Origin: Synergistaceae bacterium
GTDB taxonomy: Bacteria > Synergistota > Synergistia > Synergistales > Aminobacteriaceae
Assembly (NCBI GenBank): GCA_017448795.1
Contig: JAFSKV010000035.1
Coordinates: forward strand, 1-33,438
Direction of reading: 5' to 3'
DNA: 33,438 nucleotides
The translations under genes and the position numbers were made by a program. Every line of letters starts with the position of its first letter. The first letter of the stretch is position 1. The notes beneath the pieces were generated by a model. The model had not been told where the DNA came from. It searched no databases and was given only the letters and a program-made list of their open reading frames with translations. Of this stretch, positions 6,137 to 30,670 are shown piece by piece.

Positions 6137-7653
6137 GCTACATCAAGTCCCGCCATGCACCGAGGAGTCCCGAGTCCCCCCCGCCAGTGAGGAACAGCGG
6201 CTACAGCCAACACGGGGCGAGTCGTTCAAAGCCTGCGTTTCTGTCATGGTTTGCAGAGTCCCGTTCAGCGCATGAGGACATCACGGAGAATCAGGAGTTA
6301 TTGCGAGAACGTTCGCGTGATCTGTACGCAGGAGGCGGACCTTTAGGGCGTGGAGCTGTTGACAGGTTAGCGTTAAACGCAGTTGGTTCAGGATTGCGAT
6401 TGAACGTGAGGATAGACCCTGAGCTATTAGGTATGACGGATGACGAGGGGCGCAAATGGACAGCCAGAGTTGAGTCAGAGTTTGATTATTGGGCATCGTC
6501 AAAATCAGCGTCATATGACGGACAGCTATCATTCTACGAGATGCAGGCGTTAGCGTTCAGGAGCGTGCTTCTTGACGGAGAATGTCTGCTTAGGCTGCGT
6601 GATACCCCGTATCATAGCCGTAATATCTACACGTTATGCTTGGAACTGATAGAGTCAGAGCGATTGACGACCGGGGAAGCACATAGCATGCTGTCGAAGA
6701 TACCGGCTGACGGAGTGGAATGTGATGAAAACGGTCGGCCTATAGCATACTGGGTAGCGAACAGGAATCCCAATAGTACCCGGGCCGGGCTGCCTCCATT
6801 AGAATGGAACAGGTACGAGATATACACGGGTTTCCCGGAGCGGCGAGTGATGTTTTTGCTGATGGATTCCGAACGCATAGGGCAGAAAAGGGGAGTGCCA
6901 TTTCTCGCGCCTGTGATAGAACAGTTAAAACAATTGGGACGTTACACGGATGCGGAGTTAATGGCCGCGGTGATTTCAGGAATGTACGCGGTATTCTTTC
7001 AACACGAGCCGCGCCCCGAGGGAGCAATCGGAGAAGAGGAATACGCATCCGAAGAAGGATTGGGAGATTTTCCCGGTCTTGAGGGTATAAGCCAGAAAGA
7101 AATGTACGGTATGATAATGGACTTGCCTGAAGGAGTGAAACCGGTCGGTATCAGCCCCTCCCGTCCTAACACGAGCTTTGACGCGTTTGTGTCGAGCCTT
7201 TTGCGCCAAATCGGGGGATGTCTCGGCATTCCGTCTGAACTATTGACGCTGAATTTCACGGCCAGTTACAGCGCGAGTCGTGGAGCATTGCTAGAGGCGT
7301 GGAAATTGTTCCGTTATTGGCGTTCATGGTTCAGCGAAAATTTCTGCCAGTGCGTATATGAAGACTGGCTGACCGAGGCTGTGATGAAGGGGCGAGTGTC
7401 AGCACCTGGCTACATGGATGATGATTATATACGGAGCTTGTACACGTGGGCGGAATGGACAGGTCCGAGTCAAGGGCAGCTGAATCCCGTGCAGGAAGTG
7501 AACGCAGCAATTCTGAAAGCACAGCACGGGCTGAGCACATGGCAGCGAGAGACGAGCGAATTAACCGGTGGAGATTTTGACCTTAACATGAAGCAGAAGA
7601 AGCGTGAGGAGTCATTGATGACGGAGGGAACGAATGTACAAGATAAGGGATAA
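6133..7653 (+). CDS. Portal protein (lambda gpB family)
   Basis: 506 aa, starting at an ATG coupled to the previous stop (ATGA). It forms the dodecameric ring through which DNA enters the prohead. Recognisable family parts are RSRDLYAGGGPLGRGAVDRL near residues 58-77, a FRSVLLDGECLLRLR block near 140, FLAPVIEQLKQLGRYTDAEL near 255, and a FTASYSASRGALLEAWKLFRYW block near 376, all characteristic of lambda-family portals. The C-terminus is Lys/Glu-rich and disordered. It overlaps the protease gene by 20 bases, as in many lambda-like operons. No truncation is seen. Confidence 0.95.
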   Translation: MSYIKSRHAPRSPESPPPVRNSGYSQHGASRSKPAFLSWFAESRSAHEDITENQELLRERSRDLYAGGGPLGRGAVDRLALNAVGSGLRLNVRIDPELLGMTDDEGRKWTARVESEFDYWASSKSASYDGQLSFYEMQALAFRSVLLDGECLLRLRDTPYHSRNIYTLCLELIESERLTTGEAHSMLSKIPADGVECDENGRPIAYWVANRNPNSTRAGLPPLEWNRYEIYTGFPERRVMFLLMDSERIGQKRGVPFLAPVIEQLKQLGRYTDAELMAAVISGMYAVFFQHEPRPEGAIGEEEYASEEGLGDFPGLEGISQKEMYGMIMDLPEGVKPVGISPSRPNTSFDAFVSSLLRQIGGCLGIPSELLTLNFTASYSASRGALLEAWKLFRYWRSWFSENFCQCVYEDWLTEAVMKGRVSAPGYMDDDYIRSLYTWAEWTGPSQGQLNPVQEVNAAILKAQHGLSTWQRETSELTGGDFDLNMKQKKREESLMTEGTNVQDKG

Positions 7654-13518: not shown

Positions 13519-13681
13519 GGCGCATTACCCCCTTCAGGAGCCAGACGGTGAACAGCCCCGCGGCAATCCATGACACGGAGACACCGAGTACAACGCCCCA
13601 GAACTGGCGGCGCAATGAACGCTTCCACTCGTCATAGGGCTTGGTGGGATGACGTTTCCGCAGTTTTTCACTGATACTCAC
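13511..13681 (-). CDS. Antisense single-span membrane protein
   Basis: Leftward gene of 56 aa from GTG at 13681, or 60 aa from ATG at 13693. The ATG directly abuts its possible ribosome site (AGAAGG), so the GTG (spacing 12, still long) is slightly preferred. It opens with a strongly basic, charged part (SEKLRKRHPTKPYDEWKRSLRR), then one membrane segment (FWGVVLGVSVSWIAAGLFTVWLL) and ends KGVMRHG. It is the first gene of the antisense pair and overlaps the next one. An extended -10 box lies upstream at 13719-13724. No family recognised; the design suits a small holin/antiholin or superinfection-exclusion protein. Confidence 0.6.
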   Translation of the reverse strand: MSISEKLRKRHPTKPYDEWKRSLRRQFWGVVLGVSVSWIAAGLFTVWLLKGVMRHG

Positions 13682-13718
13682 GAGAACACACATCCTTCTA
13701 TTTTTATGGGATGGACAA

Positions 13719-13727
13719 ATTATATCA
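13719..13727 (-). promoter_or_regulatory. Leftward extended -10 promoter for the antisense pair
   Basis: On the leftward strand TGA-TATAAT is a perfect extended -10 element, with TATAAT at 13724-13719. It lies between the ribosome site of the rightward chaperone gene and the start of the leftward membrane gene, giving a leader of roughly 20-30 bases. The -35 is poor (CATGGT at 17 bases). Confidence 0.55.
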
Positions 13728-13744
13728 TCAAGGAGGAAATCACC

Positions 13745-14053
13745 ATGAAGATAACCCTAACGCGCCCCGTTCCCTACAAGGACACGGAGCTTCATGAACT
13801 CACCGCCGATTTTGACACGCTGACCGGGAACGACCTTATATCAGCTGAGGAGAATATGAGGCGCAACAAGCCGGATGCGCAACTATGGGGGACGCTGCAC
13901 ATAGCCCACATAGCAGCCAAAGCCTCGCACATTCCGGCAGAAGTCATTCTGAAACTCTGCGCAAAGGACTTTATCGCCCTGTCAGCCGGGGTCATGAATT
14001 TTTTCGGCGCAATAAGCTCGGAAGTATCAGCTCCGGAACTTACAGACGATTGA
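13745..14053 (+). CDS. Tail assembly chaperone, short product (gpE-type)
   Basis: 102 aa from the ATG at 13745, with AAGGAGG just upstream. Small acidic protein beginning MKITLTRPVPYKDTELHEL, followed by LTADFDTLTGNDLISAEENM and a helical part ending in LTDD; this is the pattern of Mu gp41/P2 gpE tail chaperones. These bind the tape measure during tail assembly. The gene contains a T_TTT_TTC slippery site at 13999-14005, 16 codons before its stop. It lies between tube and tape measure genes as usual. Confidence 0.88.
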   Translation: MKITLTRPVPYKDTELHELTADFDTLTGNDLISAEENMRRNKPDAQLWGTLHIAHIAAKASHIPAEVILKLCAKDFIALSAGVMNFFGAISSEVSAPELTDD

Positions 14054-14205
14054 TAGTAACCCTTGCATCGTGTGAACTTGGCACGAGCATACCCGATTGG
14101 ATGAACGTCCCCCTGAATGATATAGTCCCCTGGGCAGAAAGTATCAGGGAGCATCAGGACGAGCAGACCCGGTATCTCAGGAAAAGCCGTAACGTAAGGA
14201 AGTGA
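13745..14205 (+). CDS. Frameshifted long tail chaperone (gpE+E'-type)
   Basis: If the ribosome slips -1 on T_TTT_TTC (13999-14005), reading continues from CGG at 14005 in the new frame to the stop at 14203-14205. The product has 153 aa: the first 87 shared, then 66 new ones. The new part contains 'LASCELGTSIPDWMNVPLND' and IVPWAESIREHQDE, the typical E'-like sequence in which a Trp-containing loop precedes a final helix. There is no separate ribosome site or good start for this part, which supports frameshifting. The stop is four bases before the tape measure ATG. Confidence 0.85.
13999..14005 (+). other. Slippery site T_TTT_TTC for -1 frameshift
   Basis: The zero-frame codons are AAT TTT TTC, giving the heptamer T TTT TTC (X XXY YYZ). 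The upstream and downstream frames encode the two halves of the expected E/E' chaperone pair, and the required shift is exactly -1. Confidence 0.85.
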
Positions 14206-20090: not shown

Positions 20091-20942
20091 ATGAAGAAAT
20101 CTGACTTATTCCCCGCGCTCCCTGATATAAATTTTACCGACAAAGACCCGGAGTCCGTCAAAGCAGAGATAATTTCCGCCTATGAGTCCGCATCAGGAAG
20201 GACGCTCTCAGTGTCAGACCCGGTATATCTGTTCCTGTTGACTGTGGCAAGCGTCATCATTCAGCAGCGTAACATCATAGACATAGCAGCAAAGAACAAC
20301 CTGATAGCCTACGCAGAAGGGGCTTATCTCGACCATATAGGCGCATTGCTCGGAGTTACACGCCTTGATGACGAGCCCGACGAGTCTTTTCGCGGACGCA
20401 TCTACATTGCCCCCGAATCTTTCAGCGTCGCAGGACCCTCTAAAGCCTATGAGTTCCACGCTAAGAAAGCTCATCCTGATATTCTCGATGTCAAGATTCT
20501 CACTCCTCCTGACACTGAACCGGGACATGTCGAAATTTACCCCCTCATGAAGGGCGGTCTCTTACCGTCAGCAGAAATCATTGATGCCGTCTTCATGGCT
20601 TGCTCTGATGACACAGTCAGGCCTGATACTGATTATGTCGAAGCAAAATGCCCGGAGGCTGTCAGTTTTGACGTGAATATTACGTTCTGGATTAACGCGG
20701 AATTGTCGGCTTTGTCCGCGAATATTCAGGTTGCAGTGAATGAAGCCGCTGATGCGTGGGTATTGTGGCAGAAATCGGAGCTAGGACGCGATATTAACCC
20801 GTCGGAACTCGTCAGGCGCATCATCAACGCGGGGGCTAAAAGGTGCACGGTTTCATCTCCAAGTTTCACGAGGCTCAAAAACTCACAGGTTGGTATTGCA
20901 CGGAATGTTAGTGTAAATTATGGCGGTCTCGAAGAAAGTTAG
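20091..20942 (+). CDS. Baseplate wedge protein J
   Basis: 283 aa, ATG behind GGAAGGATAACAGC. Family features: YLFLLTVASVIIQQRNIIDI near 44-63, 'NLIAYAEGAYLDHIGALLGV' near 67-88, 'PDESFRGRIYIAPESFSVAG' near 96-115, then HVEIYPLMKGGLLPSAEII. This is the P2 gpJ / Mu gp47 baseplate protein that forms the wedges with W and I. Intact. Confidence 0.94.
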   Translation: MKKSDLFPALPDINFTDKDPESVKAEIISAYESASGRTLSVSDPVYLFLLTVASVIIQQRNIIDIAAKNNLIAYAEGAYLDHIGALLGVTRLDDEPDESFRGRIYIAPESFSVAGPSKAYEFHAKKAHPDILDVKILTPPDTEPGHVEIYPLMKGGLLPSAEIIDAVFMACSDDTVRPDTDYVEAKCPEAVSFDVNITFWINAELSALSANIQVAVNEAADAWVLWQKSELGRDINPSELVRRIINAGAKRCTVSSPSFTRLKNSQVGIARNVSVNYGGLEES

Positions 20943-22183: not shown

Positions 22184-23347
22184 ATGGGTATGATCCTCAC
22201 TGACAAGGGAAGAGACCTCCTCGCAAAAGCCCTCACAGGCAAGCAGTTATCATTTTCCCGCGTCATTGTCGGAACGGGGGACTTAGGTACGCGCAGGCCT
22301 CAAGAGTTGACTGACCTAGTCAGCCGCAAACTTGCCCTCACCATCACGGCCTTGAGAACTAGCTTAGTCGGCACGGCTGAAATCACTGCTGAAGTCTCAA
22401 ACCAGAGCATCACTTCCGGCTTCTTCATGAAGGAGACAGGGATTTTTGCCTTTGACCCAGACACACACGCTGAAGTCCTTTATGCTTACGTCAACAAAGG
22501 GAATGAGGCTGAATACATCGCGGGCTTTGATGGCACTAACCCGATCAGTTACGTTTTCCATTTTGTGACTGTTATCGATATGGCGCAGAACGTTACGGCC
22601 GTCATCACGGAAGATAAATCCTACATCACCCCCACAATCCTAGACCAGAGGATAGAGTCCCTTTTCGCCCCCTCGTCTTCACCACAAGGTTTTTGGACTT
22701 ATGCCCCCAACGACACAAGACGTTTCCGCCCTCTCACTGTCCCAGAAACCCGCAAGGCTATCATCGGCTTAACTGACATAAACAGCCTCATTGAGCGCGT
22801 GAAATCACTGGAAGATGCAGTCAACCAACTCACTTTAGCACTCAATGTTCAGGAAATTTTCCCACAAGCTGATAGATTCATGGCCGAGGACTTCCTTGTC
22901 CCTGACACTGTCGACACATTCACCGCCCAAGTCACAAGCATTGTCGCAGGGGATGACTCGGTTGACTGTGAGCCCATTGACGGACTCCTTCCGGGCAGTC
23001 TCTACACTGTTACCGACGGCTTGATGCACGAGGATGTGAAGGTTGAGAGCGTCAATCTCGAAAATGGGGTTATGCGCGTCATCATGGAGGACAGAATCAG
23101 GAACACTTACAGCCTGAACAACTGTCGGCTTCTCAGGACGACGGCCGATGTACAGGATGGCACAGCGTACGGTACGGCATCACGGCGGAATGCTGTCTGG
23201 ATACCGGGCACTGAATGGAAGGGACTCGCTGCCAGTTCCTCGTTCAATGTCAGCCTCGATACTTCCATCAGCAGGCAGGACTGCTACACTTTCACGGGGG
23301 CTGCTGCAATCAATTCTGACGGTGCTGTCACTTTGAGGAGGGATTAA
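22184..23347 (+). CDS. Tail fibre with N-terminal collar-fibre domain (DUF3751-like)
   Basis: 387 aa; the start ATG at 22184 is two bases after the previous stop, while the in-frame ATG at 22034 lies within the upstream gene. The N-terminus (MGMILTDKGRDLLAKALTG then LSFSRVIVGTG) and the following ITSGFFMKETGIFAFDP with VLYAYVNKGNEAEYI match phage tail-collar fibre domains, which attach a fibre to the baseplate. Residues from 200 are a coiled-coil linker (INSLIERVKSLEDAVNQLTL) and a beta-rich tip. Its last codons carry a GGAGGG that may serve the next gene. Confidence 0.88.
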   Translation: MGMILTDKGRDLLAKALTGKQLSFSRVIVGTGDLGTRRPQELTDLVSRKLALTITALRTSLVGTAEITAEVSNQSITSGFFMKETGIFAFDPDTHAEVLYAYVNKGNEAEYIAGFDGTNPISYVFHFVTVIDMAQNVTAVITEDKSYITPTILDQRIESLFAPSSSPQGFWTYAPNDTRRFRPLTVPETRKAIIGLTDINSLIERVKSLEDAVNQLTLALNVQEIFPQADRFMAEDFLVPDTVDTFTAQVTSIVAGDDSVDCEPIDGLLPGSLYTVTDGLMHEDVKVESVNLENGVMRVIMEDRIRNTYSLNNCRLLRTTADVQDGTAYGTASRRNAVWIPGTEWKGLAASSSFNVSLDTSISRQDCYTFTGAAAINSDGAVTLRRD

Positions 23348-23348
23348 C

Positions 23349-24824
23349 ATTTTCACACGGAGACTTAGGGGAGATTTCCGCTCGCTGTTACATTTCGACT
23401 TCCCGCACTATTACGCGCAAAATTCCGGCCTCAAGGATGAGACGGGGTTATCTGAGTGGCAGAAACACGGAAACGCTTCTTTTGCCGGGAATTTGTACCC
23501 AGTCGACAATTTCAGGAATGACGCCCCCAAATTCGGCTATAGGTGCCTCATGACACAGTCAGCTGATGATTACGTCCACGCATCAAACACAGGAGCTTTC
23601 ACGGTGTCAGGAACAGACAAATTTACCCTCGAAATTTTCGCGGACTTCCTGTCATCGTCAGCAGGGAACATCATTTCCTTCATGGCCGGGACGTCTCAGG
23701 CTCTCAGTATTACTCTCGAAGCCTCGCGCATCCTTAAGGTTTCAGTCCCAAATTGGGGCATCACTTTCACAGGGGCTGACATCCCGGCTTTATCCGCTTG
23801 GCATCACATAAGGCTCACGTCAAACGGCGCGGATTTGTCTCTCTGGCTTGACGGCGCTCTTGAAGGCAGAGCAAATCTCACGGGGACATCTCAGCTTCAG
23901 GTTACGGAATGCAGGATAGGGGGCTGTCATGCATTGCTCGATGAATTCGCTTTCAGGGACGGGGATGCAGGGGCAGGCGTTCCTTTCGAGCCCTTCAGAT
24001 TGTCGCTCGACATAACGAAGGCGGGGGGGTTTGGGACTGGAAGAGACGGCGCGCTTAATCTCACGTCAGCCAACGCGTTCACCGTCAACACACGCGGAAG
24101 GGTCAAAGAAGCGTCGGGCGTGAATATGCAGGTTATCTCATGGACAGCCGCAAACTACTTCAAGACCGTCAACCCGGGCGATGAATTGATGTTCCTCGTC
24201 ACATGCAGAAACGACTCTTTCCCGTCAACGGATCTAGCAGGGCTTTACGCTTTCAGGGACGTCGTCGCCGTCAATGACACGTATATTACTGTTGACCGCC
24301 CCATAACAGACGAGTTTGACATGACTGAGGCCTTAGCGTCTTACATCGTTACTGCCTACAAGATTCCTCACCTGTCTTCATTGTCATTCACAGGGCAGGC
24401 TAGGTTTAACTGGGACGTTTTCGCCGTGAGATCCTCGGGCGACGTGTCTTGGAACGGGGCTACATACGTCGAGAAACACGACTTGAGGCGCGATTCTATT
24501 GCACTGTCTCACTCAGACCTTCCTGACAGGATGATACCCTCAGCAGGGAACATACTCATATTCTGCGGAGGCACTTTCACAGCACCTGAAGGCGCAAGAA
24601 TCGGCCACACAAAAGCAGGGAGCATAACACGCGGGCCCGGCATCGGTGGCTCGACTCTGTGGGACAATCCTATCATGGTAGGCGCGGAGACTCTACGTTA
24701 CGCCGAGTGCAACATACTCATTGCTGCAAAGAGACTCAGAATTGACCAGTCAGCATTAGCTTACGGCGCAACTATTTCAAGCAGGTATTCAGGCCTGTGT
24801 TACTTGGCAGGTGATTTCGCGTGA
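23349..24824 (+). CDS. LamG-like fibre protein, probable AUU start
   Basis: About 491 aa if started at ATT 23349. The frame is open from a TGA at 23334, and the first ATG/GTG/TTG in it is the TTG at 23493, but the peptide before that (RRLRGDFRSLLHFDFPHYYA, then DETGLSEWQKHGNASFAGN) is a good LamG/concanavalin-like entry sequence (L-x-H-F-D ... D-E-T-G ... W ... G). A GGAGGG ribosome site lies just before ATT 23349 (another ATT at 23343 is too close). So a rare AUU start is likely; a +1 shift from the previous gene is the alternative. The rest is beta-rich (HIRLTSNGADLSLWLDGALEG near 157), compatible with glycan binding. Tip contains GGTFTAPEGARIGHTKAG. Confidence 0.75.
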   Translation: MFTRRLRGDFRSLLHFDFPHYYAQNSGLKDETGLSEWQKHGNASFAGNLYPVDNFRNDAPKFGYRCLMTQSADDYVHASNTGAFTVSGTDKFTLEIFADFLSSSAGNIISFMAGTSQALSITLEASRILKVSVPNWGITFTGADIPALSAWHHIRLTSNGADLSLWLDGALEGRANLTGTSQLQVTECRIGGCHALLDEFAFRDGDAGAGVPFEPFRLSLDITKAGGFGTGRDGALNLTSANAFTVNTRGRVKEASGVNMQVISWTAANYFKTVNPGDELMFLVTCRNDSFPSTDLAGLYAFRDVVAVNDTYITVDRPITDEFDMTEALASYIVTAYKIPHLSSLSFTGQARFNWDVFAVRSSGDVSWNGATYVEKHDLRRDSIALSHSDLPDRMIPSAGNILIFCGGTFTAPEGARIGHTKAGSITRGPGIGGSTLWDNPIMVGAETLRYAECNILIAAKRLRIDQSALAYGATISSRYSGLCYLAGDFA

Positions 24825-26275
24825 ACATTTCTTCCGGCAATAACTCAATTTTTGCACACGACAATCTGGCAGCTTTCACTTACGGCGTCATCGTCTCTAA
24901 TCCTGATTGGGGCTTTGACTGCAGGAACGCTGAATCTGTCACAGGATTCACTGTTACTGACTCTGTCCCTCCGGGTGCTGCGTTATATTTCGCGTTTAAT
25001 TCGGGCGGGCAGTGGTTCAGCCTCAGCACGTCAGGCCAGGCCGTCAGCATCTCATCACAGACTCCAGATTACCCCCTCCTGTCAGCAAAAGGCAACACTC
25101 CTTCTCAGCTAAAAGCCCTGTCATCCGTCCCGGCATTTCCCGGAAAACTCGTTAGAATCGCAATAGGACTCGCGTCGTCAGCAGGCGGGGAAGTCCCAAC
25201 AGTCAAGCTCGCTGTCAGGGCTTCATCTTCTTCACAGCAGACTTCCTTCACCGAGTACTCGCCGGTTTTCGCACTCAGCAATAACGCTGTGATTGCGGAT
25301 GTTCCTTTTGACACGGTGCTATCAGGGGGCGGGACTGTCAATGTGTCAGGCAAAATCACAAGGGCTGACGGCAGCGAATCGGACTGGTTATCTGTTCAGC
25401 AGCTTAGAGGCGCGCAGGCTTCTTCCATTCAGCTCAAGGCGGATTATTATGTACCCTCGCCCGGTAGCGCAAGCGCGAAAATCTCGCAATCCTATGTTAC
25501 GTATTACACTTCAGGCCTCGCATCATCGGGGGGAACTGGAAGGCTTTTCTCTGTCACCGAAGACTGGTATACCCCCATCAAGTCAGCTAGACTCTCCGTA
25601 AGGCATTCACCTTTAGGCGACTCGGCCATGACGGCATATGCTGCTTTCAGGATGTCGCCCGTTCAGGTCGTTGGCGAACAGCTCGGTATCTCGCCATCTG
25701 GAAGGAAGACTTACCAACTCGAGCACTCTAACGGGATACGTTATGACACTTTCAGGCTATATGTTGACTCGCAGGAGCTTTCCTCTGGCTTTGAGCTCAA
25801 CTGTGAGGCAGGGCGCGTTACTCTCTCGGCTCCTGAAGGCTCGATCATCTCATGCTCATATGAATACGGCTGGGACTCGGAAACTTGGCGGGAATTATCT
25901 CTCGCTGAAAGGGTATCTCTTGCTGACTATGACATGAGCGAGTTCACAATCACAGACGTTGACGGGGATTTTTCCGCCGGGGCGTTCAGGCTTGACATAT
26001 CGGGCTCAAGCGGCCATGTGTCAAACGAAGCCTTAGGTCTCTCATCCGCAACTGCTCGGACTGTAAGACTCTCACATCATGCTTCAGCCCTCCCGGTTGT
26101 CGAATATTATTCCGGCGGTAAATGGCTATCATTGTCAGCAAAAAATTTCGCACTCATGGACAACTCTCGGCTGTTAAGGCTCGCAGCTCCTGCCGGGTGC
26201 CAGTGCAGATGTTCTTATGACTGGACAAGCGACCCGGTTAGAATCTGGCAGACAGCTATTGTGTTCCATAACTAA
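24821..26275 (+). CDS. Large beta-rich fibre/appendage protein
   Basis: 484 aa from a GTG overlapping the previous stop (GTGA). The composition is Ser/Gly/Ala-rich with short beta strands and almost no helices: 'GVIVSNPDWGFDCRNAESVT', 'GGTVNVSGKITRADGSESDW', 'FRLYVDSQELSSGFEL'. This is typical of phage structural appendage proteins with repeated beta-sandwich modules. No domain is recognised with confidence. Location in the fibre block implies virion attachment or host binding. A 23-codon minigene and the final fibre gene follow. Confidence 0.8.
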   Translation: MNISSGNNSIFAHDNLAAFTYGVIVSNPDWGFDCRNAESVTGFTVTDSVPPGAALYFAFNSGGQWFSLSTSGQAVSISSQTPDYPLLSAKGNTPSQLKALSSVPAFPGKLVRIAIGLASSAGGEVPTVKLAVRASSSSQQTSFTEYSPVFALSNNAVIADVPFDTVLSGGGTVNVSGKITRADGSESDWLSVQQLRGAQASSIQLKADYYVPSPGSASAKISQSYVTYYTSGLASSGGTGRLFSVTEDWYTPIKSARLSVRHSPLGDSAMTAYAAFRMSPVQVVGEQLGISPSGRKTYQLEHSNGIRYDTFRLYVDSQELSSGFELNCEAGRVTLSAPEGSIISCSYEYGWDSETWRELSLAERVSLADYDMSEFTITDVDGDFSAGAFRLDISGSSGHVSNEALGLSSATARTVRLSHHASALPVVEYYSGGKWLSLSAKNFALMDNSRLLRLAAPAGCQCRCSYDWTSDPVRIWQTAIVFHN

Positions 26276-30135: not shown

Positions 30136-30670
30136 ATGCGAACAGGCCGAGTGCTGAATGATGATATTGCTGACTGGCGCGAGGCATGGAGGCTGTTTCC
30201 GGGAGATGTCGCCTACATATGGCATGCCTCAATTCATGGTGAGACTGTAGCGGAGAGCTTGCGGTCATGCGGCTTCAACATCCGTGCACAAATCATCTGG
30301 GCAAAGCCTAAGTTTGCGTTGTCTCGCGGCGATTATCACTGGCAGCATGAATGTTGTGCATACGCCCTCCGTGATGACGGGGGATATTTTCCCGGTTACG
30401 ATGGTTGCTGGTACGCAATCCGAGACGGCGAAAAGAGTCATTGGCAGGGAAGCCGCAGTGAGTCAACGTTGTGGACGATAGACTACAGCAATCAAGACGC
30501 GCAGACGAATCACGGAACGCAGAAGCCCGTTGAATGTATGCGCCGCCCAATGCTGAACAATTCCGCTCCCAACGAAATCATATATGAGCCATTCAGCGGG
30601 AGCGGGACTTGAAGGGACTGACAGCACATTTGACGCTGTAGCAGTGAAGCAGAGTGAGGCCAGTGAATGA
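30136..30670 (+). pseudogene. DNA methyltransferase remnant (both ends damaged)
   Basis: The visible 158-aa frame reads MRTGRVLNDDIADWREAWRL onward and includes GFNIRAQIIWAKPKFALSRG, 'SHWQGSRSESTLWTI', 'NHGTQKPVECMRRPMLNNSA' and ends IYEPFSGSGT before a TGA at 30610. This is the C-terminal half of the phage-type N4/N6 methyltransferase family. The N-terminal part with the catalytic DPPY is missing. After the FxGxG-type SAM motif the gene should continue, and its very end does: the next frame reads TFDAVAVKQSEASE then stop at 30668-30670. So an internal deletion with a frame change removed the region between. It cannot be active. Confidence 0.75.

Follow-up and report, generated by a model that had tools for sequence, protein, structure and literature searches.

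Which codon starts the lectin-domain tail fibre gene of a Synergistaceae prophage, in a reading frame that opens without any of the usual initiation codons? The frame lies on the forward strand of a 33,438-nucleotide stretch of DNA (the window). Direct reading of the frame confirms what the initial annotation had noticed, namely that it contains no ATG, GTG or TTG between its last upstream stop, TGA 23334-23336, and TTG 23493-23495. The codons that follow the TGA are GGA GGG ATT AAC ATT TTC ACA CGG AGA, of which the second ATT (23349-23351) is the proposed start. Read from this codon, the gene spans 23349-24824, with 491 open codons closed by TGA 24822-24824; the ORF listing gives the frame as 23493-24824. 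A ribosome site ahead of the ATT had also been proposed and is indeed present: the Shine-Dalgarno (SD) sequence AGGAGG occupies 23336-23341 (forward strand), within the 3′ end of the upstream fibre gene, and 7 nt separate its last G from ATT 23349. The anti-SD duplex energy at this ATT is −13.1 kcal/mol, a value matched by 3 of the 1,118 ATT triplets in the window (both strands, 23349 counted in). Spacing alone is no proof of a start, since AGGAGG-N4-9-ATT occurs four times in the window versus 1.6 times expected by chance; on sequence comparison, proof of the position comes from alignment with relatives and not from SD spacing. RNA structure around the start is ordinary (z 0.96), and Rfam gave no match within the window.

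The gene sits in the fibre cassette of a prophage. The window, one of the 86 contigs of a 2.54-Mb genome, encodes terminase, portal, protease, major head protein, sheath, tape measure, baseplate J and I, fibres, primase and integrase; the prophage is contractile-tailed and near-complete. Upstream lies a tail (collar) fibre gene of 387 aa (22184-23347, forward strand; phrog_7037 tail fiber, E 2.6e-41), which ends in TAA 23345-23347, 1 nt before the proposed start. Downstream, a third cassette gene (24821-26275, forward strand) starts with GTG in a 4-nt overlap, is syntenic in relatives and shows 50-54% identity in G011, G040 and G041. The gene between them encodes a LamG/ConA-like lectin-domain tail fibre with full-length homologues and a match to PF13385 (Laminin_G_3; E 1.2e-6) of 29.2 bits, above the Pfam cut-off of 27.6. 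Its structure model is β-strand-rich (mean pLDDT 74.6), and a fold search with the model returned only lectin-like binding domains (TM about 0.3, about 10% identity), matches that are uninformative past the shared β-sandwich.

Homologues were sought in 43 genomes of the same genus, the named relatives being Fretibacterium or Synergistaceae metagenome-assembled genomes, several of them from goat stomach compartments. Full-length LamG fibre homologues occur in G040, G041 and G011 at 44-48% identity. Alignment with related phages, a check suggested at the outset, places ATG opposite ATT 23349 in the three closest homologues (L003, L004/L041 and L005; M-Y-T-R versus I-F-T-R), and the protein alignment places TTG there in a fourth (L007). 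In the three closest, the ATG has an SD in front of it and comes just after the point where the homologue of the upstream fibre gene stops. The 48 residues before 23493 had been described as protein-like, and they prove to be conserved: over residues 2-48 (23352-23492, forward strand), which a start at 23493 would lose, 25-27 of 47 positions are identical in three relatives, corresponding to 53-57% identity versus 44-47% for the remainder of the protein. Codon positions 1 and 2 in this segment are conserved well above position 3, a third-position drift that indicates coding selection. The aligned ATG at the same junction, together with this conserved N-terminus, supports an AUU start of the fibre.

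The same evidence bears on whether another in-frame codon (ATT 23343, CTG 23385 or TTG 23493) is used instead, which is very unlikely. ATT 23343 and CTG 23385 are near-cognates and TTG 23493 is canonical, but ATT 23343 overlaps the upstream stop and sits 1 nt from the SD, and CTG 23385 has a weaker (−8.3), longer-spaced SD. TTG 23493, the first canonical start codon of the frame, was rejected as the start: it is almost without an SD (−4.3 kcal/mol), and initiation inside the conserved protein would discard residues that are under selection. Moreover, the relatives begin at the 23349 position.

The junction also decides against a +1 frameshift from the preceding fibre gene, which the initial annotation had entertained as a source of an extended, fused fibre. 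The two frames do overlap over 23337-23344, with an SD-like AGGAGG at that point (AGG AGG G AU UAA). However, the upstream fibre homologues, 54-62% identical and aligned over residues 2-386 of 387, reach the same end point with a stop of their own, and the LamG genes of the relatives have their own ATG or TTG. A frameshift fusion was rejected on these grounds, no programmed +1 frameshift being indicated between genes that are separate in the relatives, and the probability left to it is minimal. An indel error was likewise rejected, as the proteins align gap-free across the start. With no indel and an upstream gene that ends as in its homologues, the two genes were not fused ancestrally, and the only change is one base of the start codon. 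An ATG in relatives after a single-base correction had been named as a reason to doubt the AUU, and such an ATG was found in the form of a substitution (ATG versus ATT) but not of an indel. A difference by substitution separates a real AUU from a base error only weakly.

Judged from the sequence, the LamG fibre is likely to be translated weakly from AUU 23349 after a change from AUG to AUU, with a strong SD and upstream coupling assisting; the unusual codon is probably a genuine but weak start and not an error. This explanation draws on the ATT-ATG alignment, the SD and its spacing, conservation of the N-terminus and conservation of start codons in the host. An ancestral AUG would have become AUU by one base, leaving the frame unshifted. 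Ribosomes ending the upstream fibre at UAA 23345-23347 would be retained by AGGAGG and would re-initiate one base downstream of the UAA, where fMet-tRNA would read AUU as a near-cognate start, and the expected outcome is less LamG protein than with AUG. Tolerance of such starts by the host may be reflected in polA, an FtrD-like gene and probably murA, which appear to begin at AUU, AUA or AUC behind a strong SD. The layout is that of a coupled pair (UAA, AUU one base on, SD inside the upstream gene); the SD is at a usable spacing, the ATT is at the homologues' start position and no canonical start spares the N-terminus, an arrangement from which actual initiation at AUU, coupling and reduced yield can be inferred. 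In favour of the AUU start were counted an SD among the strongest in the window, the 491-codon open frame and a largely complete prophage; against it were counted the ATG of the closest phage relatives and the identical appearance that a single wrong base would have.

Published systems offer parallels for each element of this proposal. Termination-reinitiation coupled pairs resemble the fibre pair in having stop and start 1 nt apart and an SD inside the upstream gene, and coupling drops steeply with distance and works best where genes overlap or lie a very short gap apart (PMC10666635); the fibre pair differs from them in its non-AUG start and in that its coupling is predicted from the sequence. 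In Staphylococcus aureus, cvfC1 and ccpN are like the LamG fibre in combining a near-cognate AUH codon (AUU, AUA or AUC) with a strong SD at suitable spacing, a conserved N-terminus and expected weak expression, and the AUU of cvfC1, behind a strong extended SD, yields about 10% of AUG (PMC13009471). Those starts are conserved, chromosomal and reporter-tested, whereas the fibre gene encodes a phage structural protein and starts at AUG in its relatives. Listeria rsbW mutants share with the fibre a one-base ATG-to-ATT change at a start that overlaps or adjoins the preceding gene, and translation persists in them, with weak but detectable low-level protein from the ATT (PMC13068326). They are laboratory-selected, reporter-tested mutants of a sigma-factor antagonist, whereas the fibre AUU start is predicted from sequence. 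A functional AUU start has also been described for RcsD-HPt of Yersinia pestis (PMC10191623), and a yield of about 0.3% of AUG for AUU in Escherichia coli reporters is quoted in one of these sources (Hecht 2017, cited in PMC10666635). Such weak yields lead to the expectation of a reduced LamG dose, and by analogy it is plausible that the AUU limits fibre level.

The non-canonical start is not conserved: relatives use ATG or TTG, and the AUU is private to the window sequence, unlike the starts of the FtrD-like gene and polA in the host. Searches of viral contigs, phage records and same-genus genomes turned up no second copy of the phage. This leaves room for an assembly base error or minority variant, the true codon being ATG and the start ordinary, an explanation that is unlikely but deserves some weight. 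All three close relatives carry ATG, and the named relatives are metagenome-assembled genomes, so the 86-contig genome may be one too. Switches from AUG to AUU are also very rare, at 1 of 61,358 reconstructed AUG starts (PMC5622118). On the other hand, an assembled contig is itself unlikely to carry a substitution error at precisely 23351, the remainder of the LamG frame shows no error, and independent AUU/AUA/AUC starts in many genomes of the genus raise the prior for a real AUU. Alternatively, the base change may be real and amount to start loss, the gene being effectively silenced in the prophage, perhaps as a recent defect. AUU is weak and the change is private, as a defect would be, but the frame is intact over its 491 codons, as are the neighbouring genes, the SD is optimal and the ATT start in Listeria still yields detectable protein (PMC13068326). 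Start loss is improbable, although a very recent loss may have occurred. Weak initiation at AUU 23349 has a further line of support in the host.

The start codons of host core genes were compared across the genus. In E. coli, infC has a rare AUU start against which IF3 discriminates, resulting in autoregulation of IF3. The initial annotation had cited this case; the fibre shares the rare AUU with infC, and there is no reason to think that it regulates IF3. The analogy does not carry over to the host, in which infC autoregulation through AUU was rejected: infC in the genus has a conserved TTG start, mostly behind AGGAGGAGG (L282-L311), where several model bacteria have AUU or AUA. The initiator tRNA is ordinary, with a CAU anticodon, and no altered initiation machinery was found. 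A sample of 635 kb of host chromosome was searched for SD-preceded non-canonical codons heading long ORFs, and ATT was not clearly enriched behind an SD in start-like contexts (8/730 versus 258/37,600 overall). Two candidates from this sample, an FtrD-like gene and murA, were traced through the genus. An automatic screen of 220 gene pairs between the host genome (G000) and G041 gave six AUH cases versus one to five for control codon classes, and after inspection polA and the FtrD-like gene alone survived. The genome-wide rate of AUH starts in the genus can be put, roughly, at about 1%.

For these two genes the pattern extends through the genus. The FtrD-like membrane protein gene (PF10080; L079:8783-10039 in G000, and L142-L171) has an ATT start in the host, and among 29 readable same-genus genomes its start is ATT in 26, ATA in two and ATG in one. 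In the host it starts one codon past a stop, the next canonical codon lying 108 nt downstream, and its junction, GGGAGGG followed by a stop and ATT, is similar to the one at the phage fibre. A candidate from the pairwise screen against G041, polA (L079:1519-3879, minus strand, in G000, and L212-L241), starts with ATT (12 genomes), ATA (12), ATC (1), GTG (2) or ATG (2), giving AUH in 25 of 29 same-genus genomes, with one more misaligned. Its start is nearly always behind a GAGGTGAT-like SD, and in many genomes an in-frame GTG lies inside the SD itself. At least six of the polA AUH cases have no canonical codon from the upstream stop to the start. Elsewhere in the family, outside the genus, polA mostly carries ATG or TTG close to its start. 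A third gene, murA (L100:17545-18819 in G000, and L112-L141), has ATA behind an SD in most genomes and probably starts there, an in-frame ATG six codons later being the alternative. Tentatively, the genus may use AUU, AUA and AUC as a genuine and partly interchangeable class of starts for core genes (polA, the FtrD-like gene, murA and probably more), with its phages using such weak starts to adjust how much tail protein is made, perhaps under a control shared with the host genes and exerted by IF3, whose own gene starts with UUG and not with a self-limiting AUH. A tail gene of the G040 prophage, gpD-like (L315; L069 about 7200-7225), lacks a canonical start close by; at the position of the GTG of its relatives it has TGA, followed by CTT ATT ATA, with AAAGGGG 7 nt ahead of ATT ATA. 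It is possibly a second AUU/AUA start in the phages of the genus, or else a small indel.

AUU starts as such are a known kind of signal. The open-access papers searched contained neither a phage fibre gene with a published AUU start nor a report of an AUU start in the phylum Synergistota. To our knowledge, AUH starts of polA and the FtrD-like gene across the genus are undescribed, and they are more interesting than the fibre start. Gene finders in common use recognise ATG, GTG and TTG only, so that the 48 conserved residues would be cut from the fibre; the same rule would misplace the starts of polA and the FtrD-like gene across most of the genus. If these starts are real, the genus provides a natural set in which AUU, AUA, AUC, GUG and AUG interchange at one gene start, and the cost and control of near-cognate initiation would become testable beyond the usual model bacteria. 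The fibre would then be a phage structural gene whose start codon is so weak that it sets the amount of fibre made.

Several other features of the prophage were observed. The ATG of the upstream fibre gene (22184) has essentially no SD (+0.7 kcal/mol) and comes directly after the stop of a 96-aa ORF, a setting that suggests dependence on coupling here too. Two ORFs at 13649-14053 and 13885-14205 overlap in the −1 frame and are both conserved in relatives, with a slip-like site, GAATTTTTTCGGC, at 13996-14008 near the end of the first; the pair looks like the usual −1 frameshift of tail assembly chaperones. Baseplate J (20091-20942) is missing about 95 residues after residue 92 compared with the G040 and G041 prophages, and that of G011 likewise is without them. 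Three minus-strand ORFs resembling tail fibres or spikes lie at 265-2342 next to the terminase genes, apart from the main fibre cassette. Finally, a DNA methyltransferase ORF at 30136-30612 covers only positions 244-391 of a 633-column profile and is possibly a truncated gene.
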